Source of the DNA: Lachnospiraceae bacterium
Lineage (GTDB): Bacteria; Bacillota; Clostridia; Lachnospirales; Lachnospiraceae
DNA: 64,000 bases
Direction: 5' to 3'
NCBI GenBank assembly: GCA_910574865.1
Contig: CAJTDN010000012.1
Coordinates: 1 to 64,000, forward strand
The position numbers and the translations under genes were made by a program. Shown here in pieces: positions 10,578 through 43,483 of this stretch (positions are counted from its first letter, which is position 1; every line of letters begins with the position of its first letter). The notes under the pieces are model-generated. The model was not told the origin of the DNA, did not search any database, and saw only the letters and a program-made list of their open reading frames with translations.

Positions 10578-10736
10578 GATGAATACCTCGTTTCCAATTT
10601 TACTCAGAAAAAATGATACCAGAAGGTTTAAAACTATGTTTGTCATGCCTTAAAGGTTCGCTTCGTGTCGTGACATGAAAAGCATGGTCTTTTGCTCTGG
10701 TATCATTTTAGCACAGAGTGTGTGGTTTGGTAAACC

Positions 10737-15710: not shown

Positions 15711-15742
15711 TTTTGTATTTATTCATCCTTCCTAGAATATTT

Positions 15743-16804: not shown

Positions 16805-17469
16805 TTTTCCGTGTATCCTCCGTCAACCGTTATTTTCTGCCCCGTCAGGTAACTGTTTTGCTCGCTGCCAAGGAAATATACCACTTCGGCAATTTCCCCG
16901 GGTTCCGCCATCCGTCCAAGGGGGATGGCAGCTGAAATTTCTTCCATTTGTTTTTCCGTGTTGTTTTTCCTCGTAAGTTCCGTCAACGTGAAGCCTGGGC
17001 AGACCGTGTTTACCAGGATGTTATCCTTGGCAAGCTCGACAGCCAATGTGTTCGTGACACCGTGTATCCCGTTTTTCGTAGCACTGTACACGCACCGCCC
17101 TTCCTTGGACACGACGGCCCAGATGGAGGCGATGTTCACGATTTTTCCGTAATGCTGTTCCCGCATGGCTCCCACTAATCCACGCAATAACTTGATAGGG
17201 GCGATTAGGTTTACTTGCATCATGTTCGTCAGTTCTTCGTCCGTGACCTGCTCGATCGCATGCACGTCATTGCACCCGGCATTGTTGACGATGACATCAA
17301 AATATTCTTTTTTATGCAGACGGACAAAGCTTTCGATGGACTTGTCATTGCTAAGGTCGAGTTCTTGCCGGGATGGCGTGACGGCTTCATAACCATGTTC
17401 CTGAAACTTTGCCGCGATTGCCTTGCCTATTCCCCTCGATGCACCTGTCACCAGTACCTTCCTTGTCAT
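16801..17469 (-). CDS. SDR-family NAD(P)-dependent oxidoreductase
   Basis: A 222-residue classical short-chain dehydrogenase. TGASRGIG (cofactor site, residues 8-15), NNAG (about 67-70), the serine in IASIWAV and YSATK (Tyr and Lys of the active site) are all present. It resembles FabG-like reductases. The gene sits between the GT2 and cyclase genes and overlaps the cyclase by four bases, so it probably reduces or oxidises the cyclase product or a branched-sugar intermediate. A gap of 121 bases separates it from the GT2 gene upstream, with no clear terminator. Confidence 0.85.
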   Translation of the reverse strand: MTRKVLVTGASRGIGKAIAAKFQEHGYEAVTPSRQELDLSNDKSIESFVRLHKKEYFDVIVNNAGCNDVHAIEQVTDEELTNMMQVNLIAPIKLLRGLVGAMREQHYGKIVNIASIWAVVSKEGRCVYSATKNGIHGVTNTLAVELAKDNILVNTVCPGFTLTELTRKNNTEKQMEEISAAIPLGRMAEPGEIAEVVYFLGSEQNSYLTGQKITVDGGYTEK

Positions 17470-17590
17470 TTTCCGTCCCTTCCTTTCCGCGATTTATGGG
17501 AAACTCCCTTTACCATGTCATAAACCTTCGATTTCGGCGCAAACGCTCCGTTTGTTGCTCATTACCGCTTGAAAAGAAACGGCTTGATTA

Positions 17591-18529
17591 TCATGGCTCT
17601 TCAAAGTTAATCCGCTCTTCCTCAATGACCATCGGACGTTTCGTGATTCTCGTCAATATTGCCCCGATATATTCACCTATGACCCCTATGCATGCCAGTT
17701 GTCCCGAACCCAACAAGAACATCCCTATCAGAACGGGAGCCATGCCCATTTCAAAGCTGTCCCAGTAGATAAGCTTCATGACAAGATAGATTATGGCGAA
17801 AATGAAACTGGCAACGGACATGCTAATTCCGGCCAATGTCACGATTCGCAAAGGTTTTTTTGAAACATGTGTCAACCCCGTGATTGCGAAATCAAAATAA
17901 CTGTTGAAATTATAACTGGACTTCCCTTTTTCCCGTTTCCTTTGCGTGTATTCCACAAGGCACCATTTATAGCCGAGTTCGGTTACTAATCCACGTATGT
18001 ATGGGTCGGGATCGTCCATCCAGCGGATAGTTTTAAGCACTTCCTTGTCATATAGGCCGTATCCGGTAACATTTTCCAAATGTTCCGTTTCAGAAAGTAG
18101 CTCCATGATTTTGTAATATAGCTTTCTTACTTGGAACATCAGGAAGTTTTCCTTGCTCTTGGTTTTCTGTCCCATGACGACCTTATAGCCTTCTTCCCAT
18201 TTTTGAAGGAAGATAGGTATCATTTCCGGCGGGTCTTGTAAGTCACAAACAATACAAATCAAAGCATCGCCTGTTGCCTGTAGCATCCCGTAAGTTCCGG
18301 AACGGTTGGGACCGAAGTTCCTGGCATTCAATATGACTTTCACGTTTTTATCCTTGTTTGCCATTTCCCTTAATATTTGCCTGGACATGTCATTGGAGCA
18401 GTTATCAATGAATATGTGTTCGTAAGTATACTGGGGCAATCCGTCAAACTGCTTTTTCACCTCTTGATATATGTTTTGAATGTTACCTTCTTCATTATAG
18501 CAAGGGGTCATGACCGATATATGTTTCAT
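17591..18529 (-). CDS. GtrB/DPM1-like polyprenyl-phosphate glycosyltransferase
   Basis: A 312-residue GT2 enzyme. It has a cytoplasmic GT-A domain (residues 1-225: MTPCYNEEGN, DNCSNDMS, CDLQDPPEMI as the acid motif) and two C-terminal membrane helices (about 235-295). This is the form of the GtrB/dolichol-phosphate-mannose synthase group, which loads a sugar onto polyprenyl phosphate. It may feed the GT-C enzyme at 13629. It overlaps the epimerase gene by four bases. The donor sugar is not known, but a CDP-linked product of this operon is possible. Confidence 0.85.
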   Translation of the reverse strand: MKHISVMTPCYNEEGNIQNIYQEVKKQFDGLPQYTYEHIFIDNCSNDMSRQILREMANKDKNVKVILNARNFGPNRSGTYGMLQATGDALICIVCDLQDPPEMIPIFLQKWEEGYKVVMGQKTKSKENFLMFQVRKLYYKIMELLSETEHLENVTGYGLYDKEVLKTIRWMDDPDPYIRGLVTELGYKWCLVEYTQRKREKGKSSYNFNSYFDFAITGLTHVSKKPLRIVTLAGISMSVASFIFAIIYLVMKLIYWDSFEMGMAPVLIGMFLLGSGQLACIGVIGEYIGAILTRITKRPMVIEEERINFEEP

Positions 18530-19446
18530 TTGTTATCACTCCTGTACCATTCCATCGTCCTGCGGATTCCTTCTTCAAATTCCACTTCTGGAATGAAGCC
18601 GGTATCCTCGGTAAGTTCGCCTATGTCCGCAGTCAGTTTCATCACCTGGTTCGGATAGTATTCTCGTTCACCGAGTCCGATTTCCAGACCTGGATTGACG
18701 ATATCACGTATCGCGATGATGTAATCCCGTAACAACCGGCTTTTTCCCGAACCGATAGTATAGGCCTTCCCATGTTTCCCGTGCTTTCCTATCAAATAGA
18801 ATGCCCTGGAACAATCTCCCCCATAGAGATAGTCCCATATTTGGTCACCCTTCGTGAAACTCATGCGTTCTCCTTTCAACATGCCAATCACACTGGACAT
18901 GACCATGGTAAATTCGTTGTCCCCGGGACCATACGTGCTCACGATTCTCCCCCAGGACTGGCGCATTCCGAGCCGTTCGCACATGACGGCACTAAGCTTT
19001 CCAGCAGTATATTTGGCAATACCGTATCCCGTTACCGGGTTCTTTGGCAGCTGATCCGACAAGGCACCTTCCACAAAACCAAATTCGGCCTGAGAACCCG
19101 CCCCGACAAACACTCCGCACCCGAGCGCGTGTGCCAGATTCACCGCGTCCAACGTGTTTTTGATGTTTTGCTCTTGCAACCTGGCATCATTCCTGCTGTC
19201 ACCATAAGTGCCGTCCCAAGCAAAGTGGTAAAACGTGTCATAACCGGCCGTCAGTCGTTCTCTCAATGATGAAAGAGAATTAATGTCACATTCTTGTACG
19301 TCCAGGTTCTGATGTGTCAGCAGGTTTCTTTTTTTCTTTGAGTTTGGCCGGATTATGGCGGTTACCTTGATGTCATCCATTAACATTTGTTCTATCATGG
19401 ATGAGCCTATCATACCGGTCGCACCCGTCACAAGCACCTTATTCAT
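18526..19446 (-). CDS. NAD-dependent epimerase/reductase for a nucleotide sugar
   Basis: A 306-residue extended SDR. The start MNKVLVTGATGMIGSSM at 19446 follows AAAGGAGTC. The family motifs TGATGMIG and YGIAK (Tyr and Lys) are present, and the end SDIGELTEDTGFIPEVEFEEGI resembles RmlD/AscF-like reductases. In Yersinia the similar YerF reduces the side chain made by the thiamine-diphosphate enzyme YerE. The gene directly follows such an enzyme here (8-base overlap), so the same pairing is a fair inference. It is also similar in layout to the gene at 47141. Confidence 0.8.
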   Translation of the reverse strand: MNKVLVTGATGMIGSSMIEQMLMDDIKVTAIIRPNSKKKRNLLTHQNLDVQECDINSLSSLRERLTAGYDTFYHFAWDGTYGDSRNDARLQEQNIKNTLDAVNLAHALGCGVFVGAGSQAEFGFVEGALSDQLPKNPVTGYGIAKYTAGKLSAVMCERLGMRQSWGRIVSTYGPGDNEFTMVMSSVIGMLKGERMSFTKGDQIWDYLYGGDCSRAFYLIGKHGKHGKAYTIGSGKSRLLRDYIIAIRDIVNPGLEIGLGEREYYPNQVMKLTADIGELTEDTGFIPEVEFEEGIRRTMEWYRSDNK

Positions 19447-21244
19447 ATTTGACTCCTTTGTTTTCCAGATATTCTTCCCGTGAAAGAAACGGGGACAAAT
19501 CGTCAATTGCGGGGGAAACAATTTTTCCGTCAGGCAGTACTTTTGACGATAATTTCGGGGCGAAAAATTGTTCCTTGTCTAAGATTACCTCGCAAATCGT
19601 GGGACCTTGCGATTCGATTGCCTGGCGTACTGTCTCGTCAATCAGGTCCACATGGTTAATTCGGAGATAGGGGATGCCATAGGCATAAGCGATTTTCTCC
19701 ATGTCCGGGAAACTGACCCCGTTTTCCTTGTTCACCCCGGCCAACGCGCCTTTAAATAAGTTGCTTTGTGTTTGCCGCATGGAGTGGTAACCGTCATTGT
19801 TTAAAACAAAAATCTTGATATTCGCGTTGTTATAAACGATAGTCTGCAATTCTTGGAGATTCATCTGGATGCTTCCGTCACCGTCCAGACAAATGACTCT
19901 TCGCCCGCATTTCGCGAAACTGACTCCAAGAGCGGAGGGGACACCGTATCCCATGGTGGCACATCCTGAATTCGTGAACAGACGTGTGCCTTTTTTGATG
20001 ATTCCTGCCTGGAAGGAGACAACGCATGCTGAACCGTTTCCGGTGACGACCGTCTCGTCCTCGTCAAGGTTTTCGAACAGTTTCCTCATGAACACATATG
20101 GATTTACGGGTGATTGCTTTGAATAATATTCCGGCAATGCCGCCGGATATCTTGCATCCGTCTTCCTGCACCAGGCAACCCATTTTTTATGTTCCTCGTT
20201 CACGCCTTCGTAAGTGCTTTCAAGCAGAGAGTGTATGACATCCTTGACATCAGCGTGAATGGGCAAGTCCGGGTGAATCGTGTGTTTCTTTAATTCCTCG
20301 CCATCGATATCCACGATAATTTTATATGCGTCCTTGGCAAAATCGTTATAATTATAGCTGATTTGCCGAATGTTCAGACGGCATCCGAGACTGATTAACA
20401 AGTCACAGTTTTGAACTACGAAATTGCCTCCCCGGGTTCCAATGGTACCAGGTCTTCCGGCATATAGCGGGTGCTCGTCCCAGATTATGTCATGCGCGTT
20501 CCATGCGGTAACCACCGGGATGCCAAGTTTGTCCACAAGTTTGATAAACTCGTCCCTTGCGCCGGCCAGGCGAATCCCCGTCCCGGCCAGAATTACCGGG
20601 CGTTTTGCCTTTTTGATTTGTTCGAGGATGCGGGCGGTATTCCCCTTGTCATAAATGACATTTTCTGTCTCTTCGTCTTTTTTGAAATGAACCAGTTCAT
20701 CCGTGTCAATGACTGCGGCCTGGATGTCAAGGGGGATGTCTAACCATACGGGGCCGCCCCTTCCGATCTTGCATAAGTACAAGGCTTTTTCCAGATGATA
20801 CGCGATTTCGTTCGCGTCATCTATGAATTTTGCATATTTGGTCATGGGCGCGACGCAGTCCGTGATGTTGAATTCTTGATCCCCTATCTGGCGAACCTTC
20901 GCGTCCGTCGCATGAACGGTCGTGATTCGTTTTACTTGTCCTGAAACAACGAACATTGGTATGGAATCCAGCCATGCCCCCAACACCCCAGTAAGGGCGT
21001 TTGTCCCGCCCGGGCCGCTGGTGACACATACCAACGGAAGTTTCCCTGAATATCTCATATATCCCTCGGCGGCTATCGCGCATGCCTGCTCGTGATGATT
21101 AAAGACGCATTTTAGCCCTTCTTTATGTGTGAACGCGTCATCCAGGTGCATGGCACCACCACCGGTGATAAGAAAACAATGTTCCACGCCGTTTTTCACA
21201 AAGAAGTTAGCCATATACTCCGCAACTTTCATTTTCATTTCCAT
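19439..21244 (-). CDS. thiamine-diphosphate-dependent enzyme, acetolactate-synthase-like
   Basis: A 601-residue three-domain enzyme. FNHHEQACAIAAEGY holds the glutamate that activates the cofactor (Glu about 51). ERILEQ..ILAGTGIRL is the central domain. GDGSIQMNLQELQTIVYNNA, then FVLNNDGYHS, is the diphosphate and magnesium motif. Length and layout fit acetohydroxyacid synthases and the sugar enzyme YerE, which adds a two-carbon unit from pyruvate to a CDP-4-keto sugar. The neighbours rfbF and rfbG favour the sugar role over branched amino acids. ATG codons at 21244 and 21238 are both possible; the AAGGAG spacing favours 21238. Confidence 0.82.
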   Translation of the reverse strand: MEMKMKVAEYMANFFVKNGVEHCFLITGGGAMHLDDAFTHKEGLKCVFNHHEQACAIAAEGYMRYSGKLPLVCVTSGPGGTNALTGVLGAWLDSIPMFVVSGQVKRITTVHATDAKVRQIGDQEFNITDCVAPMTKYAKFIDDANEIAYHLEKALYLCKIGRGGPVWLDIPLDIQAAVIDTDELVHFKKDEETENVIYDKGNTARILEQIKKAKRPVILAGTGIRLAGARDEFIKLVDKLGIPVVTAWNAHDIIWDEHPLYAGRPGTIGTRGGNFVVQNCDLLISLGCRLNIRQISYNYNDFAKDAYKIIVDIDGEELKKHTIHPDLPIHADVKDVIHSLLESTYEGVNEEHKKWVAWCRKTDARYPAALPEYYSKQSPVNPYVFMRKLFENLDEDETVVTGNGSACVVSFQAGIIKKGTRLFTNSGCATMGYGVPSALGVSFAKCGRRVICLDGDGSIQMNLQELQTIVYNNANIKIFVLNNDGYHSMRQTQSNLFKGALAGVNKENGVSFPDMEKIAYAYGIPYLRINHVDLIDETVRQAIESQGPTICEVILDKEQFFAPKLSSKVLPDGKIVSPAIDDLSPFLSREEYLENKGVKYE

Positions 21245-21262
21245 ATGCTCCTTGTCTTTACC

Positions 21263-22861
21263 CTATTCGTATAACGATGTCGTTACAAATTCAATGTCCA
21301 ACGTGTTTTCCATCCCGTGCAGAACCTCTCTTGCATGCTGGTTTATTGCCGCGGTCTGTTCTTCATCAAAGTGGTATTCCATGTTGGGATTGATATAATT
21401 TTCTTTCAAGCCATTTCGATACCCGTCAAATCCAGCCAAGCCAACGTGCGGGATTTGCCAGCGGGACAGTGCCTTTAAAAGCATGAAGAGGGGATTGTCA
21501 ATGATTTCCGCCTCATCATCTATAAGGGAACTATACTTAAGTGTATATTCAAAGGCTCCGTTTGTCTTTGTCAGGTTCGAGGTCGCTATGATTTTGAAGT
21601 CATTCTGTTTCTGTGACAAAGTAGTCGCCAATTGCACGTACCGCTTTGAATTTGTTAAAAACAAGTAATCTATTTTGAAAGCATCATCAACGAAATTTAT
21701 GGAAATGACAAGCGGGTCATGTGTTTTAATGTAATGGTCGATTTTCCCTTTTTCGTGGCGAACGCTCGTCCCTGGTCCAAGCAAAAGAATATCTCGGTCG
21801 TGGAACGTGTCAGTCAGCATGTTGACAGCCTTCGTGTCATCCACGTCGATAGCCTGGTAATTCATGTAGAGCCTTTCAACATATGATTTGTCATATAATA
21901 ATTTTTTCTCACCTTCCAGCTTTCCCAAAATCTCGTTGACGGACTTTACGGACAAGGTTCGTTTGTTTACCAGATAAGACACGTAATTGGGATGACAGTC
22001 ATTCGACGCGGCAAGATAATAAAACAGGCTGTATCCCCAAGGCGTGGCCGCATGGAAATTCATGACGTTGGAGTCCACTGCTTCCAAAAACTGGCTGATT
22101 TGATAGTGCTTCCCAAAGTTGTCATTCAAGTACATGGCAATCAATTCGATGGGGGCGTTCCCGGCACTTTTCCCCATGCCATAAATCGTGCCATCGACAA
22201 GGAGAGGACGTTCCACCTTTTGGGACATCATCGTGATACAGTTCGCGTAACCCATCTGGAAATTATTATGGGCGTGATATCCCAGGCAAATTTCAGGAGA
22301 TAGGTGTGCGTTTAACAAATCGAAATAATGTTGTAAGTTATTTTGATGCATCAGCCCGTATGTGTCCACCATTGAAACCGCATATGGCTTCACGTCGTTT
22401 GCCAGACGTATCAAGTCCATCATTTCTTCGTCATCATAGCTGGTAACGGCGACCAATTGTGCAAAGACCTTATAGCCAAGTCCTTTGAGTTTTGAACAAT
22501 ATTCTAATGCTTCTTTTCGTAAATGCTTCTTGAAAATCACGCGGATGCAGTCGAGGAAGGAATCCTTGCATGGCTTTATGTTTGAAAGGGCACAAGTCCC
22601 ATAATCAATCATTCCAACGACCTGGGTGTTTTTCCTGTCCAGTCCCCCGTATATCCTCTCCACGCAGTCCGTGTCGGGCATGATGCTACGGTTGATGTCA
22701 AACTTACGTCTGTCGTCCAAAAAACCGATTTCAATAAATTCGACGTTCGCGTCCACCACCCGCTCGAAGATGCTGACCAGGTTGTCATGACCAAAATTCC
22801 AGTCATTCAAATATCCCCCATCCCTGAGCGTGCAGTCTAATAATTTAATGTCACCCATCAT
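21263..22861 (-). CDS. DRE-TIM aldolase with unknown C-terminal domain
   Basis: A 532-residue protein. Residues 1-280 are an HMG-CoA-lyase/4-hydroxy-2-oxovalerate-aldolase-like barrel with LLDCTLRDGGYLND (catalytic and metal Asp) and GYHAHNNFQMGYAN (metal His-x-His), plus a DGTIYGMGKSAGN loop. Residues about 350-532 form a second domain with DILLLGPGTSV and DYLFLTNSKRY, Rossmann-like, which I cannot assign. Such aldolases split or join 2-oxo acids and aldehydes, so it may supply or use the 2-oxo acid of the enzyme at 19439. It starts inside the end of rfbG (11-base overlap). Confidence 0.75.
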   Translation of the reverse strand: MMGDIKLLDCTLRDGGYLNDWNFGHDNLVSIFERVVDANVEFIEIGFLDDRRKFDINRSIMPDTDCVERIYGGLDRKNTQVVGMIDYGTCALSNIKPCKDSFLDCIRVIFKKHLRKEALEYCSKLKGLGYKVFAQLVAVTSYDDEEMMDLIRLANDVKPYAVSMVDTYGLMHQNNLQHYFDLLNAHLSPEICLGYHAHNNFQMGYANCITMMSQKVERPLLVDGTIYGMGKSAGNAPIELIAMYLNDNFGKHYQISQFLEAVDSNVMNFHAATPWGYSLFYYLAASNDCHPNYVSYLVNKRTLSVKSVNEILGKLEGEKKLLYDKSYVERLYMNYQAIDVDDTKAVNMLTDTFHDRDILLLGPGTSVRHEKGKIDHYIKTHDPLVISINFVDDAFKIDYLFLTNSKRYVQLATTLSQKQNDFKIIATSNLTKTNGAFEYTLKYSSLIDDEAEIIDNPLFMLLKALSRWQIPHVGLAGFDGYRNGLKENYINPNMEYHFDEEQTAAINQHAREVLHGMENTLDIEFVTTSLYE

Positions 22862-23918
22862 GACCCTCCACCTTTAAAAAAGTTTCTATTTGCCGCTTCA
22901 TGACGATGTCCATGTCATCCATGTCAAACCAGCGCTTGGTCCATTCCACTGTCTTTTCCACGGCTTCGTCCACATGCCATGTCGTTTTCCATCCGAACTT
23001 GCTTTTTAGCTTGGAACAGTCCAGTTTCAGAAGATTCGCCTCGTGTGGGCCACCGTCATGACAGTTCACCCATTTTGCCGACTCTCCCCATTGTTCGCAA
23101 AACAAGTCAACCAACGCGCCCGTTGACACGCAGTCGCGGTCATCTGGCCCCACGTTATAGAAACCGGCGAATGACTTGTCTTCATATTGTTTTTGGGCAA
23201 TCAGCAAATATGCGGCAAGGGGTTCCAACACATGCTGGTAAGGACGGGTGGAATAAGGGTTGCGGACAAGGATGTCTTCCCCCTTTTCCACGGCGCGTAT
23301 ACAGTCAGGAATAATCCTGTCGTTCGCGAAATCCCCGCCGCCAATGACGTTCCCCGCGCGGGCCGTGGATACGGCCACGTCCAACGCATAAAAAAAGGAA
23401 TTGATATAACTGTGCGTTACCAATTCTGAACAAGACTTGCTATTGGAATAAGGGTCGTGTCCGTCTAAAAAATCGGTTTCGCGATATCCCCATTCCCATT
23501 CATTGTTACGATATACTTTGTCGGTCGTCACGTTCAAAAAGGATTTTACGCAAGAATTTAACCGTACGCATTCGCAAGTGTTGACCGTGCCCATCACGTT
23601 CGTCTCATATGTGTAGACGGGATTTTTATAAGAGTCACGGACAATCGGTTGTGCCGCCAGATGGAAAACAATTTCCGGTTTCGTCCGTTTGAACGTTGTC
23701 TTCAAATGTTCCAAATCGCGGATATCGCCAATCTCCGAGTCCATTTTTTCATCCAGCCTAAGTATTTGGAACAAGCTCGGATTTGTGGGAGAGGGCAACG
23801 CGTAGCCGATAACGTTAGCTCCGGCTTCCAAAAGGAGTTTGCAAAGCCAGGCACCTTTAAATCCCGTATGTCCGGTTATGAGAACTTTTCTTCCTTTATA
23901 AAAACTCAAATTTGTCAT
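22851..23918 (-). CDS. rfbG: CDP-glucose 4,6-dehydratase, copy 1
   Basis: A 355-residue extended SDR converting CDP-glucose to CDP-4-keto-6-deoxyglucose. It shows GHTGFKGAWLC (cofactor site), TTDKVY with the Thr-Asp dyad, YSNSKSCSE (Tyr and Lys) and RAGNVIGGGDFA, all typical of RfbG. It lies 6 bases after rfbF and overlaps the aldolase gene. A second copy exists at 43485-44546 with more AT-rich codons. This product is the branch point for all CDP-deoxysugars in the window. Confidence 0.93.
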   Translation of the reverse strand: MTNLSFYKGRKVLITGHTGFKGAWLCKLLLEAGANVIGYALPSPTNPSLFQILRLDEKMDSEIGDIRDLEHLKTTFKRTKPEIVFHLAAQPIVRDSYKNPVYTYETNVMGTVNTCECVRLNSCVKSFLNVTTDKVYRNNEWEWGYRETDFLDGHDPYSNSKSCSELVTHSYINSFFYALDVAVSTARAGNVIGGGDFANDRIIPDCIRAVEKGEDILVRNPYSTRPYQHVLEPLAAYLLIAQKQYEDKSFAGFYNVGPDDRDCVSTGALVDLFCEQWGESAKWVNCHDGGPHEANLLKLDCSKLKSKFGWKTTWHVDEAVEKTVEWTKRWFDMDDMDIVMKRQIETFLKVEGHDG

Positions 23919-23924
23919 GATAAG

Positions 23925-24701
23925 TTACCACACTTTCCAAGGAGCCTTGCCTGAAGCCCAAAGCTCCTCTAGTTTTTCCTTTTCACGCTGCGTGTCCATG
24001 CACTGCCAAAAACCGTTGTGTTTGTATGCGTTGATTTGGCCGTCGGCACATAAACGTTCCAAGGGATCCTTTTCAAAAACGGTGGAATCACCTTCTATAT
24101 AATCCATGACTTCCGGTTCAAGAACCATGTAGCCGGCACTGATACGGCTACCGTCCGCATTGGATTTTTCCCTGAAGGCATGAATATCCAGGCTGTTCTT
24201 GTCAATGTCTAAAACCCCAAAACGTTGCCCGACATGGACGGCGGTCAGCGTGGCTAATTGCCCCGTTTTCTCATGGAAAGCAACCAGCTTGTTGATATCG
24301 ATGTCAGCGACACCGTCACCATAGGTCATGAGAAACGTTTCATTACCGATATATTCCTTGACCCGCTTGATTCTGCCCCCGGTCATCGTGTTCAGACCGG
24401 TATCGACCAGCGTCACCCTCCAGGGCTCGGACACATTGTTATGGACAATCATGTTGTTGTCATGTCCAAAGTCAAAGGTCACGTCGCTGTTATACAAGTA
24501 ATAGTCGGCGAAATATTCCTTTATCATGTGTTGCTTATATCCGCAACATATGATAAATTCGTTATGTCCGTAATGGCTGTATTCCTTCATGATGTGCCAT
24601 AGGATGGGGCGATCCCCGATTTCTATCATTGGCTTTGGTTTCAAATGGCTCTCCTCGCTGATGCGCGTGCCGAACCCGCCGGCCAGGATGACGACTTTCA
24701 T
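23925..24701 (-). CDS. rfbF: glucose-1-phosphate cytidylyltransferase, copy 1
   Basis: A 258-residue nucleotidyltransferase making CDP-glucose. KVVILAGGFGTRISEE (nucleotide site), KPKPMIEIGDRPILWHIM, and TYGDGVADID (metal Asp) are diagnostic of RfbF. It is the first gene of the minus-strand glycan operon; its start follows GGAAGAGGTT. The 5' leader holds the dyad at 24731-24757. It is about the same length as the second copy at 42704-43483 and clearly related. Confidence 0.93.
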   Translation of the reverse strand: MKVVILAGGFGTRISEESHLKPKPMIEIGDRPILWHIMKEYSHYGHNEFIICCGYKQHMIKEYFADYYLYNSDVTFDFGHDNNMIVHNNVSEPWRVTLVDTGLNTMTGGRIKRVKEYIGNETFLMTYGDGVADIDINKLVAFHEKTGQLATLTAVHVGQRFGVLDIDKNSLDIHAFREKSNADGSRISAGYMVLEPEVMDYIEGDSTVFEKDPLERLCADGQINAYKHNGFWQCMDTQREKEKLEELWASGKAPWKVW

Positions 24702-24730
24702 AACCTCTTCCTCTTTCGACTGTTAGTTTT

Positions 24731-24757
24731 TGCCCTTATTTGGAGCGAATAAGGGCA
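24731..24757. repeat. dyad site L: candidate recombination site or leader hairpin
   Basis: TGCCCTTATT and AATAAGGGCA are 10-bp inverted arms around the 7-base centre TGGAGCG. The stretch 24735-24754 is the exact reverse complement of 28402-28421 (site R), and the homology does not extend beyond it. The arm-spacer-arm form with an asymmetric centre is that of tyrosine-recombinase core sites. A recombinase gene lies 48 bases away. As RNA (minus strand) it would be a hairpin at the start of the rfbF leader. On the plus strand it is followed by five T and could also act as a terminator. Confidence 0.6.
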
Positions 24758-24800
24758 TTTTTATATATAATAAGGAAGATATCAATTAGAAAGGGTGGCG
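24758..24800 (-). promoter_or_regulatory. probable weak promoter of the left glycan operon
   Basis: Read on the minus strand, the AT-rich TTATTATATATAAAAA just before site L offers several -10 boxes (TATTAT, TATATA). A poor -35 (TTTCTA) lies 17 bases upstream of TATATA. Transcription would begin at or just before site L. The same bases form the leader of the divergent recombinase gene, whose site AAAGGGTGG is at 24791-24799. I am unsure of the exact boxes. Confidence 0.35.
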
Positions 24801-24804
24801 TATT

Positions 24805-25743
24805 ATGGAAAAAAACGTATTATTCAAGCAAGTCGCGAATGCCTGGCTGGAGGAAAAGAAGGAATACATCAAGGTGTCTACCTATATGTATTACCAATTC
24901 GAGATGGAAACCTATATTCTTCCCCGGCTCGGCGAAGAACCAATCAGCGAGGTCAATGAAAAAGCAGTACAGCAGACAGTATTATTTTGGCAACGGCAAG
25001 GTGGGAAGAACAAAGAGCCGCTAAAAAAGTCAACAGTCCAGAACCTGACCATGCTGGTCAAGCAATGTTTGCGCTATGCCGTCAAGGAAGGCTACATTCA
25101 AGAATGCTCCATGCGCATGCAGTACATACCAACGGATGTGGAAAAGAAGCAAAAAGTATTTTCCGAAAATGACCAGACGGATCTGATAAAGGCAATCTTG
25201 GCAGATCCGAACTCCAAAACGGTAGGGATTCTTCTTTGCTTGAGCAGCGGGTTAAGGATTGGCGAGGTATGTGCGCTTCGATGGGAAGACATTGATTTTG
25301 GCAATCGGATGCTGCATGTCACGAAAACACTGCAACGGATTTACAGAGTAGACAGCGTGCCACACACGGAAATCGTGATTTCCTCTCCAAAGACACGCAA
25401 ATCTGTCCGGGACGTGCCATTATCGGACAACATGATAGAATTGCTACAAAAAATGAGACCACATGACAAAAAGGGATACTTGTTGACAAATAAGGAACAT
25501 TATATGGAACCGAGAACATTTCGCAAATTTTATATGAAATTTCTGGAAACGCATCAAATCAAGCAGTTAAATTTTCATTGTCTGCGGCACACGTTCGCCA
25601 CGCGTTGTATTGAAAACGGTGGGGATTATAAGAGCGTGAGTGAGATTTTAGGTCATACGACGATAAATACCACTTTGAACATGTATGTACATCCGCAGGA
25701 AAAGGAAAAGAGACGATGCGTGGAACTGGTTCGATGGGAATAA
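24805..25743 (+). CDS. tyrosine-type site-specific recombinase
   Basis: A 312-residue phage-integrase-family protein. The N-terminal SAM-like domain spans residues 5-105. The catalytic domain (about 125-305) has Arg in SGLRIGEVCALRW, Lys in the KTRKSVRDVPL region, HCLRHTFATR (His-x-x-Arg), LGHTTINTT (His) and the nucleophile in MYVHP. All active-site residues appear present. The start ATG follows AAAGGGTGGCGT. It lies divergent from rfbF, between sites L and R. No prophage or integrative-element genes are nearby, so a DNA-inversion role is more likely than phage integration. Confidence 0.88.
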   Translation: MEKNVLFKQVANAWLEEKKEYIKVSTYMYYQFEMETYILPRLGEEPISEVNEKAVQQTVLFWQRQGGKNKEPLKKSTVQNLTMLVKQCLRYAVKEGYIQECSMRMQYIPTDVEKKQKVFSENDQTDLIKAILADPNSKTVGILLCLSSGLRIGEVCALRWEDIDFGNRMLHVTKTLQRIYRVDSVPHTEIVISSPKTRKSVRDVPLSDNMIELLQKMRPHDKKGYLLTNKEHYMEPRTFRKFYMKFLETHQIKQLNFHCLRHTFATRCIENGGDYKSVSEILGHTTINTTLNMYVHPQEKEKRRCVELVRWE

Positions 25744-25926
25744 AGAGATAGCGAAAATTAGACATCCGTCGGAAAATAATATCGGGGAGGGGGCAGAACG
25801 CCCCACCCCTTGCGTAGAATCGGCTTTTGACGCGATACTCACGGCAGATATCACCGACCGTAAGTATAAATTAGAAATTTCGCGGCTCTTATCGTCTCAC
25901 GATGTCTGCCTCACAAGGACGCGCTA

Positions 25927-26160
25927 TCAGTCCCCGGTCCAAAACGGCTCGCCATCGTCAATCATCACAATCAAATCTTCAATGTCACATTCAAGGTACG
26001 TGCAAAGCTTGACTATGAGATTGGCATCAATCCGCTGAAAGTCATCTCGGCAATACTTATTAAAATTCCCCCTGGGAAGATCCAAGTCCTTGCAGATACG
26101 GTTTTTACTGATTCCTTTTTCGGTTAACAATTCTTGTATTCTGATATGTAGATATGGCAT
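25927..26160 (-). CDS. small XRE-family DNA-binding protein
   Basis: A 77-residue Cro/CI-type helix-turn-helix protein that is almost only the DNA-binding domain (RIQELLTEKGISKNRICKDL, then FNKYCRD as recognition helix; CTYLECDIEDLIV tail). The start follows AAAGGAGG. It is divergent from the AAA-ATPase gene and lies inside the segment between sites L and R, so it may control the recombinase or one of the outward promoters. A dyad at 26194-26215 just upstream of its start could be its operator. Confidence 0.8.
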   Translation of the reverse strand: MPYLHIRIQELLTEKGISKNRICKDLDLPRGNFNKYCRDDFQRIDANLIVKLCTYLECDIEDLIVMIDDGEPFWTGD

Positions 26161-26193
26161 GATAAAACCTCCTTTTGCTTTTTGTTGATTAAC

Positions 26194-26215
26194 GCGTCAA
26201 GTAATATTTTGACGC
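26194..26215. promoter_or_regulatory. dyad upstream of the small regulator
   Basis: GCGTCAA (26194-26200) and TTGACGC (26209-26215) form a 7-bp inverted repeat with an 8-base centre, in the 331-bp gap between the regulator and the AAA-ATPase. The TTTTGACGCT half is shared with the palindromic element at 8479-8676. It could be an operator for the regulator or a scar of that element. The rest of the gap is AT-rich, with runs of TTCCAGAAAA, and holds the promoter at 26359. Confidence 0.35.
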
Positions 26216-26358
26216 TTATGCCATGCGATTCGATATCGGCTTCCGACCCTAGCCCTTGTTAGTAGAATAAAACGTTTTCCAGAAAATTTCCAGAAAAACT
26301 TTCCAAAATATCCAAAAATCCAGTACAACCGGAATTCTGCGCTTCCGCAAAATCCTTA

Positions 26359-26387
26359 TTGCATATGGATGACTCATGTGATATAGT
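26359..26387 (+). promoter_or_regulatory. promoter of the AAA-ATPase gene at 26492
   Basis: TTGCAT (26359-26364), a 17-base spacer and TATAGT (26382-26387) fit a housekeeping sigma promoter. It lies about 105 bases before the start codon and points at the gene. Confidence 0.55.
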
Positions 26388-26491
26388 TTGGATATAACTA
26401 CTCAAGCGTCGTTAATGCGGACGGATTATGGGAATATATGGGTACGGACATCCCTAAGCCATTATTATACAACAAAAGGAGCAAAAATGCT

Positions 26492-28096
26492 ATGAAAAGA
26501 TTTAATTCGACAGGACTTTGTGTTCCGAGCAAGCATTATATGGTGAATCTTGACGGAAAACTGGCTCAAATCCGCAAATTTGTCGACGATGGTTGCTACT
26601 TCATGATAAACCGCGCCCGCCAATATGGGAAAACGACGACATTGGCGGCACTGGCCAAGGTACTGAAGGAAGATTACCTTGTCATCAGCCTGGATTTTCA
26701 AGCCCTTGGCAACGAGTCGTTTAAAGATGAAAATCGATTTTCGGTTGCATTTGCCAAGATTTTTTTGCAAAGAATGCAACAATGTCCTTTGGAATCAAGA
26801 GAACTGGAAAACATTTTATTCAGATTTACTGATATAATCGCCCAAAAAGATGTTGATTTTGATTTAAAGGAGTTGTTTGACCACTTGACGGCAATCTGCG
26901 CGGCTTCCCCGAAGCCGCTCGTGCTGATGATTGACGAAGTGGACAGCGCGACGAACAACCAGGTGTTCCTCGACTTTCTTGCCCAGCTACGGTACTATTA
27001 CATCAAACGCGAGGCCAACGATGAACCCGCGTTCCACTCCGTCATTTTGGCCGGGGTTTATGACATTAAGAATATGAAGCGAAAGATACGTCCTGATGAG
27101 GAACACAAAGTGAACAGCCCATGGAATATTGCAATTAACTTTGATATTGACATGAGTTTCCACAAGGATGAAATCGCCGGGATGCTTGCCGAATACGAAA
27201 AAGACCGCAACACTGGGATGAACGTCGATGAAATGGCCGGTCTGCTCTACGACTATACATCGGGCTATCCGTTCTTGGTGTCCCGGTTGTGCCAGCTGAT
27301 AGACGAGCTGGTTGCGGGAAGTGAAGGATTTCCCGATAAAAGTTCTGCATGGTGCAAAGACGGCTTCCTAAAAGCCGTCAGCATGTTATTGATAGAACCA
27401 AACACCTTGTTTGATTCTTTGTTCAATAAATTGGAGGATTATCCCGAGCTAGACAGAATGCTCAGGAGACTTTTGTTCGAGGGCAAAGAAATCTTCTACA
27501 CGTTGGGCAATCGCCCAATTGAGTTGGCCTTGATGTTCGGATTCGTAAAAAAATCCGACAATTTGATAGTGGTTTCAAATCGAATACTTGAAACGTTATT
27601 GTATAATTTGTATCTTGTCTCGCCGGAGGCGCAGCAAGAAATGATGCAAAATGAAGCGTTGAGAGATAAAAACCAGTTCATTCAAAACGGCCATCTGGAC
27701 ATGAAACGGGTTTTGGAACGGTTTGTCGTGCATTTCCACGATTTATACGGAGATAGGGACGAGAAATTCCTCGAAGAAGATGGTCGGAGGTACTTTCTTC
27801 TTTATTTAAGGCCTATCATCAACGGCACGGGAAACTATTACGTCGAGGCACAGACGCGGGACATGGAGCGTACGGACGTGGTTGTGGACTACAACGGGGA
27901 GCAGTTTGTGATCGAGTTGAAAATCTGGCGTGGGGAGGCCTATCATACACGTGGGGAGGTTCAACTTTCCGAATATTTGGATTATTACCAGCTCGACAAG
28001 GGCTATATGCTCAGCTTTTGTTTTAATAAGAAGAAACACGTTGGGGTGAAAGAGATTAGATTGGGAAAGAAGGTACTTGTCGAAGCGGTAGTTTGA
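26492..28096 (+). CDS. AAA-family ATPase with C-terminal nuclease-fold domain (distant relative)
   Basis: A 534-residue protein. The start MKRFNSTGLCVPSKHYMVNL follows AAAGGAG; a longer frame to 26438 is unsupported. The ATPase part shows RARQYGKTTTLAAL (P-loop) and PLVLMIDEVDSAT (Walker B). The C-terminus has RTDVVVDYNGEQFVIELKIW, a D..ExK motif like that of PD-(D/E)XK proteins. It is related in plan, but not closely in sequence, to the copies at 8874 and 57489. It sits between sites L and R. The role is unknown; it does not resemble known recombination directionality factors. Confidence 0.8.
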   Translation: MKRFNSTGLCVPSKHYMVNLDGKLAQIRKFVDDGCYFMINRARQYGKTTTLAALAKVLKEDYLVISLDFQALGNESFKDENRFSVAFAKIFLQRMQQCPLESRELENILFRFTDIIAQKDVDFDLKELFDHLTAICAASPKPLVLMIDEVDSATNNQVFLDFLAQLRYYYIKREANDEPAFHSVILAGVYDIKNMKRKIRPDEEHKVNSPWNIAINFDIDMSFHKDEIAGMLAEYEKDRNTGMNVDEMAGLLYDYTSGYPFLVSRLCQLIDELVAGSEGFPDKSSAWCKDGFLKAVSMLLIEPNTLFDSLFNKLEDYPELDRMLRRLLFEGKEIFYTLGNRPIELALMFGFVKKSDNLIVVSNRILETLLYNLYLVSPEAQQEMMQNEALRDKNQFIQNGHLDMKRVLERFVVHFHDLYGDRDEKFLEEDGRRYFLLYLRPIINGTGNYYVEAQTRDMERTDVVVDYNGEQFVIELKIWRGEAYHTRGEVQLSEYLDYYQLDKGYMLSFCFNKKKHVGVKEIRLGKKVLVEAVV

Positions 28097-28363
28097 TAAA
28101 TTGACGAGCTGTCGGGAAATGAATGTATGCCTACAATATGTGCTTTGACACATTGAGACTCACAACCATATATTGCGGGTCGGTAGCATTTTCCGACAAT
28201 TTTCGCCTTAAATCACCGACATAATTGTCAGATAATCCGCGTAAAATTCTATTAGAAGATGAAAAATATAGTGTTTTTCAGATATTAACGAGATTTGACC
28301 CTTAAAATTCCAATATTGGAAACAAAAGATTAAGAATTCAAATAACAATATGTAAAATTACTG

Positions 28364-28392
28364 TTGACTTATGTCAAATTATGCGATAATAT
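28364..28392 (+). promoter_or_regulatory. promoter of the right glycan operon
   Basis: TTGACT (28364-28369) and TAATAT (28387-28392) are 17 bases apart, a strong match to a housekeeping promoter. The transcript would begin near 28399, so site R (28402-28421) would form a hairpin at the extreme 5' end of the mRNA. It ends the 385-bp gap 28097-28481, in which I see no other gene, only AT-rich sequence with small dyads such as CCAATATTGG. Confidence 0.65.
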
Positions 28393-28401
28393 ATCTAAAG
28401 A

Positions 28402-28421
28402 CCTTATTCGCTCCAAATAAG
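28402..28421. repeat. dyad site R: candidate recombination site or leader hairpin
   Basis: CCTTATT, the centre CGCTCCA and AATAAG repeat, in inverse orientation, the core of site L (24735-24754) with 20 of 20 bases identical. The arms here are shorter and less symmetric than at L. Each site lies just downstream of the outward promoter of its operon. The sites enclose 3.6 kb with the recombinase, the small regulator and the ATPase. Confidence 0.6.
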
Positions 28422-28481
28422 CACCATTTTTGTGATATTTAAAGAAATACCGCTGGGATAAAGCGTGAAGGGTGATGAAAA

Positions 28482-29891
28482 ATGTACATTTACGCAAAAA
28501 ATAGTCTATGGAAGCATATGGATTTCTTTTTATTGGATATTATTGTGATGGTAACGTCCTATGCCGGGGCTTTTTTTGTGCGTCATAAGAGTTTTGACAC
28601 TTTTTCGGAACTTTATTACCAGATTGGGTTCAGTCTTTTCCTCACATATGTGTGTTGGGTGATTTTGGCGGCCCCGCACCGGGGAATCCTGCGGCGCAGA
28701 CGCTGGAAGGAGCTACAAAGCGTCCTTTTGATGAATGTGGCGTTTCTGGCGGTCGTGACAGGGTATTTGTTCTTCGCCAAGCACATTGAGGATTATTCAC
28801 GAGTCACGTTGTTCCTTTTTCTCATGATGGATGTCCTGCTTACGTGGGCCAGTCGGACGCTATTGAAGGTGTACCTGACAATACGTTACCGAACGGATAA
28901 GGGACGCAAGTGGCTGGTGTTAGCTTCCAAGGAGGAAGCGGAGAGTGTTCTAAAACAGTATTATTATAAACAACAAGGCGATATCGAAATCGTTGGTTTG
29001 GCTATCCTGAATCAGTCGGTGTCCGACGTGAGCCAGTATCCGGTGCCAGTGGTGACGACCGAGGAGCAGATGTGGGAATACTTACGAATCAGCACGGTGG
29101 ACGAGGTGTTAGTGGGTTCGTTCACTTCTTCGGAAGGAAACATGCGTGATATCTTACTCATGCTGGTGGAAACGGGATTGACGGTTCATTTGGACGTGGG
29201 AGACTTGCCATTGTACCTTCCGAACCAGACCGTGCACCACATCGGTGAGATGACAGTGATTACGGGAGCGATGAAGGTGATTGATCCGCTTCAAAGCTTT
29301 TTGAAACGGGCGTTAGATATTGTCGGGGCATTGGTCGGTTTGTTGATTACTGCGTTGGTCGGAATCATCGTCATTCCGGCAATCAAGCTGGATTCGCCGG
29401 GACCAGCGTTCTTCGGGCAAGAGCGCGTGGGGAAGAACGGAAGGAAGTTCAAGATGTACAAGTTTCGTTCTATGTACATTGATGCGGAGGAACGTAAGAA
29501 GGAACTGATGGCCGAGAACAAAATGGATGGTCTCATGTTCAAGATGGATGACGATCCGCGCATTACAAAAGTGGGGGCATTCATCCGTAAGACAAGCATC
29601 GACGAACTGCCGCAGTTTTTCAACGTGTTGATGGGTGACATGAGCCTTGTCGGGACACGTCCACCGACCGTGGACGAATATGAGCGGTATGAGCTGTTAC
29701 ATAAAAGAAGACTTTCTATCAAACCTGGCATCACGGGATTGTGGCAGGTAAGCGGTAGGAGTGCGATAACGGATTTTGAAGAAGTCGTGGCTCTGGATAC
29801 GAAATATATCATGGATTGGAATATCATGATGGATATCAAGATTTTGTTGGAAACGGTACAGGTGGTGCTGAAAAGAAAGGGTGCGATGTGA
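28482..29891 (+). CDS. initiating polyprenyl-phosphate sugar phosphotransferase
   Basis: A 469-residue WbaP/CpsE-like enzyme that starts glycan assembly by moving a sugar-1-phosphate onto undecaprenyl phosphate. Four N-terminal membrane helices (about 12-135) are followed by a Rossmann-like region (145-250). The catalytic domain (about 275-465) has FKRALDIVGALVGLL, PAFFGQERVGKNGRKFKMYK, the DELPQFFNVLMGDMSLVGTR block and PGITGLWQVSGRS. It is the first gene of the right operon, with a leader of about 80 bases. A GGG-TGATG stretch precedes the ATG. Confidence 0.92.
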   Translation: MYIYAKNSLWKHMDFFLLDIIVMVTSYAGAFFVRHKSFDTFSELYYQIGFSLFLTYVCWVILAAPHRGILRRRRWKELQSVLLMNVAFLAVVTGYLFFAKHIEDYSRVTLFLFLMMDVLLTWASRTLLKVYLTIRYRTDKGRKWLVLASKEEAESVLKQYYYKQQGDIEIVGLAILNQSVSDVSQYPVPVVTTEEQMWEYLRISTVDEVLVGSFTSSEGNMRDILLMLVETGLTVHLDVGDLPLYLPNQTVHHIGEMTVITGAMKVIDPLQSFLKRALDIVGALVGLLITALVGIIVIPAIKLDSPGPAFFGQERVGKNGRKFKMYKFRSMYIDAEERKKELMAENKMDGLMFKMDDDPRITKVGAFIRKTSIDELPQFFNVLMGDMSLVGTRPPTVDEYERYELLHKRRLSIKPGITGLWQVSGRSAITDFEEVVALDTKYIMDWNIMMDIKILLETVQVVLKRKGAM

Positions 29892-31258
29892 AGCATAGGA
29901 AGACTTTCGGAAAACAGAAAGAGAAATGTGGTTTGGATTTTAGATATATAGAGAAAAAAGCATGGCGGTGCTTTCAAAAAATTGAAAATGGAATAGAGAA
30001 GATAAAACGTATGGAAGCGGAAACAATGCTGTCCTTGGTGAATGAAGGAATTTTGGTGATGTATGTGTTGTTTCTTACAAAGAGGTTTTTGGATTCGACG
30101 ATGTTTCGCATCCATTGGCCAGAGCACTTTCAAGATGCAATTATAGTTGTTACTATTATGTTGTTGGTGTTGAAATTGTTATTGACCCGTAATTATGAGT
30201 TGGGTGAATTGATAGTAATAGGTGTATTTACTGGTGTGTTTTTGATGGCTCGCACGGTTAGTGGATATGGGATTCTTGGTGAAGTACTGCTTTTCATGCT
30301 GGCATTGTGGGGGATTCCATTTGACAAGATACTTAGAATACATTTTGTGATTGTTAGCTTTTTACTTGTTGTTACGATTGTTTGTTCACAAATCGGTATG
30401 GTGGATAATCTGGTGTACCATTTTGAGGGCAGAAGAGAAAGACAATCGTTCGGTGGATGCTACCCGACGGATTTTGCGGCATACTTTGTCTGGTTAAGCC
30501 TTGCATGGGTTTATATAAGAAAGGAAAAGTTGAAATTTGCGGAAATCGGGATGATATTATTGGCGGGAGTAGGAGTGTGGTATTTTTGCGATGCCAGATT
30601 GAGTATGGCGGTTTTGTTTTTGAGCGGGCTGGTGTTTTTTGGAATAAAGTTGCGACATGTATATTTGGAACATATGATGATAGAAAGTGGTGAGATAAAA
30701 CAGAGAATAGACGATAAGAAAGTGATGTCGAATTGGTTGTTGAATCTTTTGGTTTTTGCGATGCCTCTTTGTGCGATAGTTATGATAACGCTTTCTTATT
30801 GCTTCTCGTTCGAGCAACCAGTGTTGGCGAAACTGGATTCCTTGTTAAGCGGCAGGCTGTTGTTGGGGCAGATTGCTTTTGAAAGATTTGATGTAAAATT
30901 GTTTGGTCAATTTGTTCCGATGGTGGGATTTGGAAGAAATACCGTGACATATATTGCGGGTTCAAACTACTTTTTTCTGGATAGTTCGTTTATGACTATA
31001 TTGATGTGTTATGGGTGCGTGTTGTTTTTTTTCATTATTGCCGCATTTATGAATTCTGCGTTTCGTGCAAAAAAAAGAAATGATTATTATCTTGTGTTAA
31101 TCATTGCGTTGATTGCTCTTGACTGTATGGTTGAACATCACATGATGGAGATTTGGTATAATCCGTTTTTGTTACTATTATTATCTGATGTTTTAGAATT
31201 GCGGGAGCGCAAAGCGCGTAGCGATTCGTGGGTATCATGGGGGCTAAACGGGTTTTGA
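29888..31258 (+). CDS. polytopic membrane protein, Wzy-like polymerase candidate
   Basis: A 456-residue protein with 10-12 membrane helices and an O-antigen-ligase/polymerase look: a loop with GRRERQSFGGCYPTDFAAYF and CDARLSMAVLF, then LLSGRLLLGQIAF and GFGRNTV. GTG at 29888 overlaps the stop of the previous gene. ATG 30014 is an alternative that would drop a basic N-terminal stretch. It probably polymerises repeat units on the outer face. A second polymerase candidate occurs at 35818. The last residues run into a GACCCCAAC sequence like the IS1182 end, so the C-terminus may be altered. Confidence 0.65.
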   Translation: MKHRKTFGKQKEKCGLDFRYIEKKAWRCFQKIENGIEKIKRMEAETMLSLVNEGILVMYVLFLTKRFLDSTMFRIHWPEHFQDAIIVVTIMLLVLKLLLTRNYELGELIVIGVFTGVFLMARTVSGYGILGEVLLFMLALWGIPFDKILRIHFVIVSFLLVVTIVCSQIGMVDNLVYHFEGRRERQSFGGCYPTDFAAYFVWLSLAWVYIRKEKLKFAEIGMILLAGVGVWYFCDARLSMAVLFLSGLVFFGIKLRHVYLEHMMIESGEIKQRIDDKKVMSNWLLNLLVFAMPLCAIVMITLSYCFSFEQPVLAKLDSLLSGRLLLGQIAFERFDVKLFGQFVPMVGFGRNTVTYIAGSNYFFLDSSFMTILMCYGCVLFFFIIAAFMNSAFRAKKRNDYYLVLIIALIALDCMVEHHMMEIWYNPFLLLLLSDVLELRERKARSDSWVSWGLNGF

Positions 31259-42664: not shown

Positions 42665-42703
42665 TTTGTGTGGTAACACAACTATAGAAAGAGGGAATTG
42701 TCG

Positions 42704-43483
42704 ATGAAAGTTGTTATTTTAGCTGGCGGATTTGGGACACGAATTTCTGAAGAGTCTTATTTAAAACCAAAACCGATGATTGAGATAGGTGAAATGCCGA
42801 TTTTGTGGCATATTATGAAGGAGTATTCCGCTTATGGAATAAATGAATTTATTATTTGTGCCGGTTATAAACAACATATGATTAAAGAATGGTTTGCCGA
42901 TTATTTTATTCACACATCAGATATTACTTTTGATTTTACAAATGGAAATGAGATGGTGGTTCATAATAAGCGCGCAGAAGCATGGAAAGTTACAGTTGTT
43001 GATACTGGATTATGTACACAGACGGGCGGGCGAATTAAACGTATAAAAAATTATGTTGGAAATGAAACATTTATGGTTACTTATGGGGATGGAGTGGGCA
43101 ATATAGATATTCATGAACTTTTTCGATTTCATAATAAATGTGGGAAAATTGGAACGATTTCAATGTTTAACTTTGGACAGTCAAAAGGCGTGTTAGAAGT
43201 ATCAAAAGATGGGGAAATTCAAGCGTTTAGAGAAAAATCTAATTTTGATGGTAATTTGATAAATATAGGTTATATGGTTTTTGAACCTTCAATTTTTGGC
43301 TATATACAAGATGATAATACGATTTTTGAAAAAGATCCTTTGAATAAATTGGCATTAGAACGGCAATTGGCGGGATATGTGCATAAAGGGTTTTGGCAAT
43401 GTATGGATACACTTAGAGAAAAAGAAAAGTTAGAGAAACTTTGGGCAAGAGGTGATGCCCCGTGGAAAATATGGGAGGATTGA
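42704..43483 (+). CDS. rfbF: glucose-1-phosphate cytidylyltransferase, copy 2
   Basis: A 259-residue enzyme making CDP-glucose from CTP. KVVILAGGFGTRISEESYLK, KPKPMIEIGEMPILWHIMKE and TYGDGVGNIDI are conserved. The ATG at 42704 follows AGAGGGAATTG; an upstream TTG at 42698 lacks spacing. It is close in sequence to copy 1 at 23925-24701, but its codons are AT-rich, like the rest of the right operon. It begins the CDP-3,6-dideoxyhexose set. Confidence 0.93.
   Translation: MKVVILAGGFGTRISEESYLKPKPMIEIGEMPILWHIMKEYSAYGINEFIICAGYKQHMIKEWFADYFIHTSDITFDFTNGNEMVVHNKRAEAWKVTVVDTGLCTQTGGRIKRIKNYVGNETFMVTYGDGVGNIDIHELFRFHNKCGKIGTISMFNFGQSKGVLEVSKDGEIQAFREKSNFDGNLINIGYMVFEPSIFGYIQDDNTIFEKDPLNKLALERQLAGYVHKGFWQCMDTLREKEKLEKLWARGDAPWKIWED

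Follow-up and report, generated by a model that had tools for sequence, protein, structure and literature searches.

Two divergent glycan operons in the DNA studied here, a 64-kb stretch of the genome of a Lachnospiraceae bacterium (hereafter the window, meaning the whole stretch analysed), are parted by a segment that encodes a recombinase and ends in inverted copies of one short sequence, each end adjoining one of the operons. Does this segment invert and, if so, would inversion decide which surface glycan is made? The features that bear on this question are as follows.

12347-24701, minus strand: left glycan operon, with 33 bp between the left site and its first start codon
24731-24757, plus strand: terminator-like hairpin formed by the left site, as read from the sequence
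24735-24754, plus strand: putative left recombination site, the dyad CTTATT-TGGAGCG-AATAAG
24757-24785, minus strand: candidate weak outward promoter at the left inner edge, TTGATA-17-AAAAAT (9/12 consensus positions)
24805-25743, plus strand: tyrosine recombinase of 312 aa, within its own segment (Pfam Phage_integrase, E = 3.1e-30)
25927-26160, minus strand: small XRE-type regulator of 77 aa (Pfam HTH_26, E = 4.8e-15)
26438-28096, plus strand: AAA-ATPase, 552 aa as an ORF (Pfam AAA_35, above its cut-off)
28364-28392, plus strand: candidate outward promoter at the right inner edge, TTGACT-17-TAATAT (9/12 consensus positions)
28402-28421, minus strand: putative right recombination site, an inverted copy matching the left one in sequence, its core inverted to CGCTCCA
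28482-48627, plus strand: right glycan operon, with 60 bp between the right site and its first start codon (genes scanned up to the last ORFs of the span)

It is our view that the segment 24735-28421 is probably a self-encoded promoter inverton, predicted from its sequence to act as an either/or switch between the two operons. The recombinase would bind the CTTATT/AATAAG arms of both inverted dyads and exchange strands within their common 7-bp core, flipping the 3.7 kb between the sites. The promoter that points outward at the 28.36-kb edge would then serve the right operon in the present orientation and the left operon in the inverted one, and a population would be a mix of cells, each expressing one of the two glycans.

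The inverted sites and the recombinase between them

The sequence-only reading that drew attention to this locus described an exact inverted 20-bp pair, both copies being dyads with the same asymmetric 7-base centre, and this was borne out by our search of the window, in which 24735-24754 pairs with 28402-28421. Each copy is a 6-7-6 dyad, CTTATT TGGAGCG AATAAG or its reverse complement, with a single asymmetric core. Extension gives a 25-nt pair of 92% complementarity, and there is thus little homology past the sites. In the left copy the dyad lengthens to a 9-bp stem (GCCCTTATT/AATAAGGGC), which is limited to the current orientation, since its inner arm moves with inversion. The length of the repeat is unusual but not decisive: when the window was shuffled 100 times preserving dinucleotides, and inverted repeats with copies 60-5000 bp apart were counted, the longest exact repeat was 13-18 nt in 99 shuffles and 20 nt in one, while the real window holds two longer pairs of 26 nt each (3405/6307 and 6641/8410). 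The case is strengthened by the core and by the dyad structure of the sites. The 26-nt pair at 6641/8410 surrounds a DDE transposase. An Rfam scan of 23900-29900 at gathering thresholds gave no match.

The recombinase had been described as having all active-site residues, and this description stands; the gene is complete. Its Phage_integrase match spans nearly the whole Pfam model, Pfam finds no Resolvase (serine recombinase) match in it, its reading frame is intact, and R151, K196, H258, R261, H284 and Y294, which we take to be the catalytic R-K-H-R-H-Y residues of tyrosine recombinases, are invariant in an alignment with five relatives. Its location inside the segment fits a promoter inverton. 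Among solved structures, its phage-type integrase fold is nearest to Tn1549-like Int.

The closest recombinase found, L083, is 52% identical to that of the window and its sister in the phylogeny (SH-aLRT 99). Profile searches with the window, L083 and L084 recombinases as queries returned no closer full-length protein from 391 genomes sampled at class level and 392 at order level; a partial relative (L237), which starts at a contig end, is 48% identical over 235 aa. The L083 cassette is a 1.15-kb segment with divergent glycan operons to both sides and TTGACT-18-TATACT just within one site. Its site arms are the same as those of the window, while its core is different yet internally matching.

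Operons, candidate promoters and probable passenger genes

The left operon encodes a glucose-1-phosphate cytidylyltransferase, a CDP-glucose 4,6-dehydratase, HMGL-like and TPP enzymes and an epimerase, together with GT2, SDR, DHQ-synthase-like, PMT_2 and flippase-like proteins. The right operon encodes an EPS priming glycosylphosphotransferase, a DUF1972 protein, GT2 proteins, its own cytidylyltransferase and CDP-glucose dehydratase, and RfbH; each operon thus has its own CDP-glucose module (rfbF-like copies 66%, rfbG-like copies 62%). Since the left start codon is only 33 bp from the left site, the left-operon promoter must lie inside the segment. A strong right promoter and a poor left one had been proposed, but consensus scoring gives the same value at both edges, one that 57% of shuffled edges reach by chance, and the contrast is not established. 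The right-edge -35 hexamer, TTGACT, recurs near the same edge in L083. The right operon may be ON at present, a suggestion that rests on the modest promoter match and on analogy with L083.

The XRE regulator and the AAA-ATPase, both already recognized in the sequence-only reading and confirmed by Pfam, are most likely later passengers. The XRE gene is missing from the L083 cassette. Relatives of the AAA-ATPase, whole or in fragments, give 5-22 matches in six of 12 same-genus genomes and, judged by these sequences, it is a member of a family that is dispersed and partly decayed. That the two genes form one linked mobile unit was considered and rejected, none of 11 other AAA-ATPase loci having a similar XRE gene nearby (E 0.01). 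At 3.67 kb, the segment is more than double the length of any of the other 29 cassettes surveyed below (1.05-1.70 kb). The arrival of passengers could thus have impaired switching.

Related cassettes and competing explanations

In a survey of related recombinases, inverted repeats bracketed 36 of 121 loci, as opposed to 1/121 with swapped flanks. A score of 16 or more was reached by 43 loci (2/121 in the swapped-flank control), 30 of which were used for the cassette and promoter counts. The others were dropped for long or gene-internal repeats (L127, L182, L093, L098, L090, L091, L092, L095 and L087), for repeats judged to be chance (L130, L119 and L085) or, in the case of L134, with L189 on the same contig and both within the 121. 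Methylase_S was confirmed beside the dropped loci L127, L093, L098, L090, L092 and L095, and also beside L130; L195, which was kept although it adjoins a Methylase_S gene, is probably of the HsdS type. In the 30 loci, one of them (L195) doubtful, the recombinase lies between inverted dyads. A near-consensus outward promoter (11 or more of 12 positions) is present at an edge of 17/30 cassettes (17/29 without L195), against 0/30 for inward promoters and 1% of shuffles, and in 22/30 one edge either scores at least two matches better than the other or reaches 11 or more. Four cassettes (window, L083, L168 and L200) part two divergent glycan operons, the L168 recombinase gene having an in-frame stop (flagged under G183). 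A self-encoded switch between operons had been thought unusual; these counts indicate that it is not a one-off. Similar cassettes adjoin surface genes in many related bacteria. Dyads of the TTTCGnAGA type were also among those encountered.

Evidence of a different kind comes from two Candidatus Scybalocola species, in which the cassette is flipped relative to flanks that are conserved, the breakpoints coinciding with the dyads, and one orientation points TTGACA-17-TATAAT at a CpsB/CapC gene. It counts against this evidence that the flips concern recombinases approximately 31% identical to that of the window (the value for the L185 relative) and that one of the loci involved (L137) is itself rearranged. 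Relatives of the EPS transferase occur in 7/12 same-genus genomes, own included; within approximately 1.5 kb on each side of the six other loci there is no recombinase ORF of the window's family, and different genes lie upstream where examined. Viral contigs lack the exact site, and no relative is encoded in any of 14 candidate stretches. Site anatomy, L083, the survey and the sister-species flips together support the original proposal that inversion would redirect promoters between the two glycan operons.

An inverting segment need not be an either/or switch. Both inner-edge promoters might be usable, in which case flipping would swap strength or regulation and both glycans would always be made to some extent. 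The equal scores of the two edges are in line with this possibility, which we nevertheless consider unlikely since most cassettes have one favoured edge, and L083 and Scybalocola have one clear promoter, although this is not decisive for the window. It is also conceivable, if rather improbable, that a once invertible segment is now locked, either by insertion of the AAA-ATPase and XRE genes or by lost recombinase expression. The excess length of the segment and the dispersed, partly decayed family from which the AAA-ATPase comes would agree with this, and the in-frame stop in the related L168 recombinase indicates that locking does occur. However, the recombinase frame in the window is intact, its residues are conserved and the sites are still identical over 20 bp.

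Two further explanations would do away with the switch altogether. The segment could be an integrated mobile element whose inverted-repeat ends arose by chance, as the phage-type fold, nearest to Tn1549-like Int, and the passenger genes might suggest. Integrase attachment sites are direct repeats, whereas here both sites and cores are inverted, and the cassette sits exactly between two divergent operons at their start regions, like those of L083, L168 and L200, which makes this explanation very improbable. Harder still to believe is that the two 20-bp copies represent a common leader hairpin or terminator with no role in recombination, even though the left one resembles a terminator hairpin on the plus strand. 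Occurrence before many unrelated operons, named at the outset as an argument against inversion, was not seen in the bacterium's own genome (5.33 Mb, 82 contigs), which holds no third copy of the site: the 19-mer CTTATTTGGAGCGAATAAG is found at the two segment ends alone with 0-2 mismatches and at two further places with three, and CTTATT-N7-AATAAG at four places, with the common core at the segment ends only. Moreover, L083 retains the arms but not the core, and the layout recurs at related recombinases.

Known systems and the wider class

The promoter inverton that we favour has several known counterparts. Salmonella Hin, of flagellar phase variation, is described as a recombinase located within the inverted H segment, together with an outward promoter, inversion choosing expression (PMC5903667); Hin is a serine recombinase (PMC3798978), whereas the enzyme of the window is a tyrosine recombinase and two divergent glycan operons would be its targets. 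Clostridioides difficile RecV is a tyrosine recombinase that acts on invertible regulatory DNA and surface traits, but it is presented as serving several scattered short switches (PMC5903667), unlike an enzyme lying inside its one putative segment with two sites (0-2 mismatches). Bacteroides fragilis Mpi also controls polysaccharide operons by promoter inversion; it is described as a master enzyme of the serine type by which at least thirteen scattered regions are inverted (PMC5903667), in contrast to a tyrosine enzyme carried in its segment. In Clostridia, inverton group 139 is reported to be statistically linked to a nearby tyrosine-type recombinase, invertase group 35, although two examples of this group are of approximately 230-250 bp, too short for a recombinase gene (PMC11892184). 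Invertase group 35 is possibly the same enzyme family as the window recombinase. The tyrosine recombinases that invert HsdS genes in phase variation of type I restriction are homologous and found by the same profile, and Methylase_S was present beside 8/8 loci tested from the HsdS-type part of the survey. These enzymes shuffle coding sequence, however, while the neighbours of the window recombinase are glycan genes and no type I restriction genes were found beside it.

More broadly, we lean towards the view that a tyrosine recombinase and one outward promoter between inverted dyads constitute a widespread portable module in Lachnospiraceae and their neighbours. Placed between any pair of operons, it could render them phase variable, and its promoter type would match the target, being sigma-70-like where glycans are concerned and sigma-28-like in the case of flagellin. 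In several genera it would toggle a pair of complete glycan operons. If this is true, inverton scans restricted to short segments would miss such cassettes, and the idea yields testable predictions for existing read data of many commensals. Gut Clostridia would have a counterpart to the capsule switches of Bacteroides that follows another logic, each switch having its own enzyme, which makes it portable and lets it be controlled independently of the others. Where the cassette serves two operons, a whole surface glycan would be exchanged by a single recombination event, with a bearing on phage resistance, immune recognition and the comparison of strains.

The segment, its sites and its neighbours

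The exact 20-bp inverted pair proposed by the sequence-only reading is present in the window, and each copy is a dyad (CTTATT-7-AATAAG) with an asymmetric, inverted centre, TGGAGCG on the left and CGCTCCA on the right, so that crossover within the core would invert the intervening segment rather than delete it.

24735-24754, left site
28402-28421, right site
start 50 bp inside the left site, tyrosine recombinase, 312 aa
in the segment, strand opposite to the recombinase, XRE protein, 77 aa
in the segment, AAA-ATPase ORF, 552 aa
12347-24701 (-), left operon, first start codon 33 bp from the left site
28482-48627 (+), right operon, first start codon 60 bp from the right site

A search for further copies, as a leader hairpin would have, returned the 19-mer in the same assembly (GCA_910574865.1) solely at the two segment ends (0-2 mismatches); the CTTATT/AATAAG arms occur at four places there, with the common core in just these two. 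When the whole window was dinucleotide-shuffled 100 times, one shuffle contained an exact inverted repeat of 20 nt with its copies at most 5 kb apart, so the length of the repeat is by itself unusual and not decisive. Two 26-bp exact inverted pairs lie elsewhere in the window (6641-8435 and 3405-6332), the former surrounding the DDE transposase ORFs of an IS element.

The left operon encodes a glucose-1-phosphate cytidylyltransferase and a CDP-glucose 4,6-dehydratase, together with HMGL-like and TPP enzymes, an epimerase, GT2, SDR, PMT_2, and a DHQ-synthase-like and a flippase-like protein. The right operon encodes an EPS priming transferase, DUF1972 and GT2 proteins, and has a cytidylyltransferase, a dehydratase and RfbH of its own. 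The AAA-ATPase is most simply a passenger of the segment, because its family has 5-22 matches (whole or fragments) per genome in 6 of 12 same-genus genomes, including this one. A second AAA-ATPase with a nuclease-like domain (AAA-ATPase_like and PDDEXK_9, 8874-10646) lies beyond the tail of the left operon.

Recurrence among related recombinases

The arrangement recurs. With an inverted-pair score of at least 18, the recombinase was bracketed in 36 of 121 loci (120 relatives and the window), compared with 1 of 121 when downstream flanks were swapped between loci. Some of the bracketed loci were of the HsdS type and were excluded; Methylase_S genes adjoined all eight loci examined from that part of the survey. 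At a threshold of 16, 30 cassettes, one of them (L195) doubtful, were retained. Promoters at the inner edges, scored as matches to the 12 consensus positions of -35 and -10, point outward in 17/30 cassettes and inward in none at 11/12 or better (shuffles 1%), and in 21/30 and 3/30, respectively, at 10/12 or better (shuffles 9.9%). Among short-flank loci, 20 of 49 scored at least 19 (a count without shuffled control); once six that duplicate cassettes of the count above are removed and two that coincide are merged, 13 further places remain. In 22 of the 120 relatives the available sequence preceding the recombinase is shorter than 300 bp and mostly begins at a contig end; mixed orientations or repeats at such loci may fragment assemblies.

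The closest recombinase (L083, Lachnospiraceae bacterium ABMPRH_255_1; 52% identical, sister to that of the window with an SH-aLRT of 99 in a quickly built 120-row tree) lies in a 1.15-kb segment that lacks both XRE and AAA-ATPase. Its sites, CTTATT-TAAAATA-AATAA and CCTTATT-TATTTTA-AATAAGG, match those of the window in their arms and differ in their core, which agrees between the two, the pattern that sites of a tyrosine recombinase should show. TTGACT-18-TATACT stands immediately inside the right site, past which lie a nucleotide-sugar dehydrogenase gene, whose best match is UDP-glucose 6-dehydrogenase, and a GT2 gene; on the other side, a gene fusing GHMP-kinase to nucleotidyltransferase and another GT2 gene run away from the segment.

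A switch between two whole operons had been thought unusual; the layout is not unique, since at least 4 of the 30 cassettes (the window, L083, L168 and L200) separate divergent gene sets. The nearest genes are GT2 and DUF1972 at L168, and at L200 polysialyltransferase-like then GT2/GT1 versus GT2 on the other side; more distant genes at both loci appear by eye to be glycan-related. The L168 cassette may be locked, its recombinase frame being interrupted. Further cassettes adjoin genes unconnected with glycans, or NusG-like antiterminator genes that recall UpxY adjoining Bacteroides capsule invertons, in two uncultured Lachnospiraceae:

L133:11428-12192, cassette beside a NusG-like antiterminator gene
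L154:8088-9026, cassette beside a NusG-like antiterminator gene

The segment measures 3.67 kb in the window versus 1.05-1.70 kb in other cassettes. A common inverton finder limits segment length near 750 bp, so that cassettes above 1 kb would be hidden from it. Searches of an open-licence library brought up no paper on Lachnospiraceae invertons that carry their own recombinase in this way, which does not establish their absence from print. In published accounts, a group of tyrosine-type recombinases is linked to inverton group 139 of the Clostridia, whose two examples with coordinates span about 250 bp (PMC11892184), and recombinases are said to lie occasionally inside the inverted segment, with Hin as the named case (PMC5903667).

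Reversed orientations between sister species

The comparison of orientation in related genomes, run on homologous cassettes of two Scybalocola species, revealed reversed orientations. In Candidatus Scybalocola faecavium (L137), TTGACA-17-TATAAT aims outward from the cassette into a CpsB/CapC gene, while in Ca. S. faecigallinarum (L189, identical to L134) the same gene, in a flank 82-83% identical, faces the recombinase start; the orientation junction falls in the dyad. A second cassette of this species pair (L137 versus L188, flanks 78-83%) is likewise reversed relative to its flank, with the promoter toward CpsB/CapC in L188. These inversions are between species, not within one culture. The two cassettes of L137 adjoin each other around a common middle site; since the core of this site does not match that of the second cassette's outer site, this locus is rearranged.

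Promoters and putative outputs in the genome of the window

The right inner edge of the window segment carries TTGACT-17-TAATAT (9/12). It had been ranked as strong against a poor left promoter, a distinction that consensus scoring does not establish, as the left inner edge also scores 9/12, a value attained by 57% of shuffled edges. The argument for the right edge as the main promoter is thus positional and comparative, not statistical; we infer both that it plays this role and that the segment inverts.

The same genome contains four additional cassettes:

C1:193000-212000, L223, adjoining a set of genes that includes an ABC-2 transporter permease
C2:134000-153000, L222, adjoining a cluster judged by eye to be kinase/phosphatase-like
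C2:272000-291000, L224, immediately upstream of genes for CsrA and flagellin
C11:22000-41000, L225, immediately upstream of genes for CsrA and flagellin

L223 and L222 each have an 11/12 outward promoter, aimed away from the adjoining set. Both L224 and L225 have the outward sequence TTAACTTCTGAAA...GCCGATAT, which resembles a sigma-28 promoter and is aimed away from flagellin in the assembly; a self-encoded flagellin switch is possible. As for the window, glucose-1-phosphate cytidylyltransferase and CDP-glucose 4,6-dehydratase are present in both operons (22851-24701 versus 42698-44546; 66% and 62% identical, respectively), a duplication that would fit two self-sufficient glycans, made presumably as alternatives.
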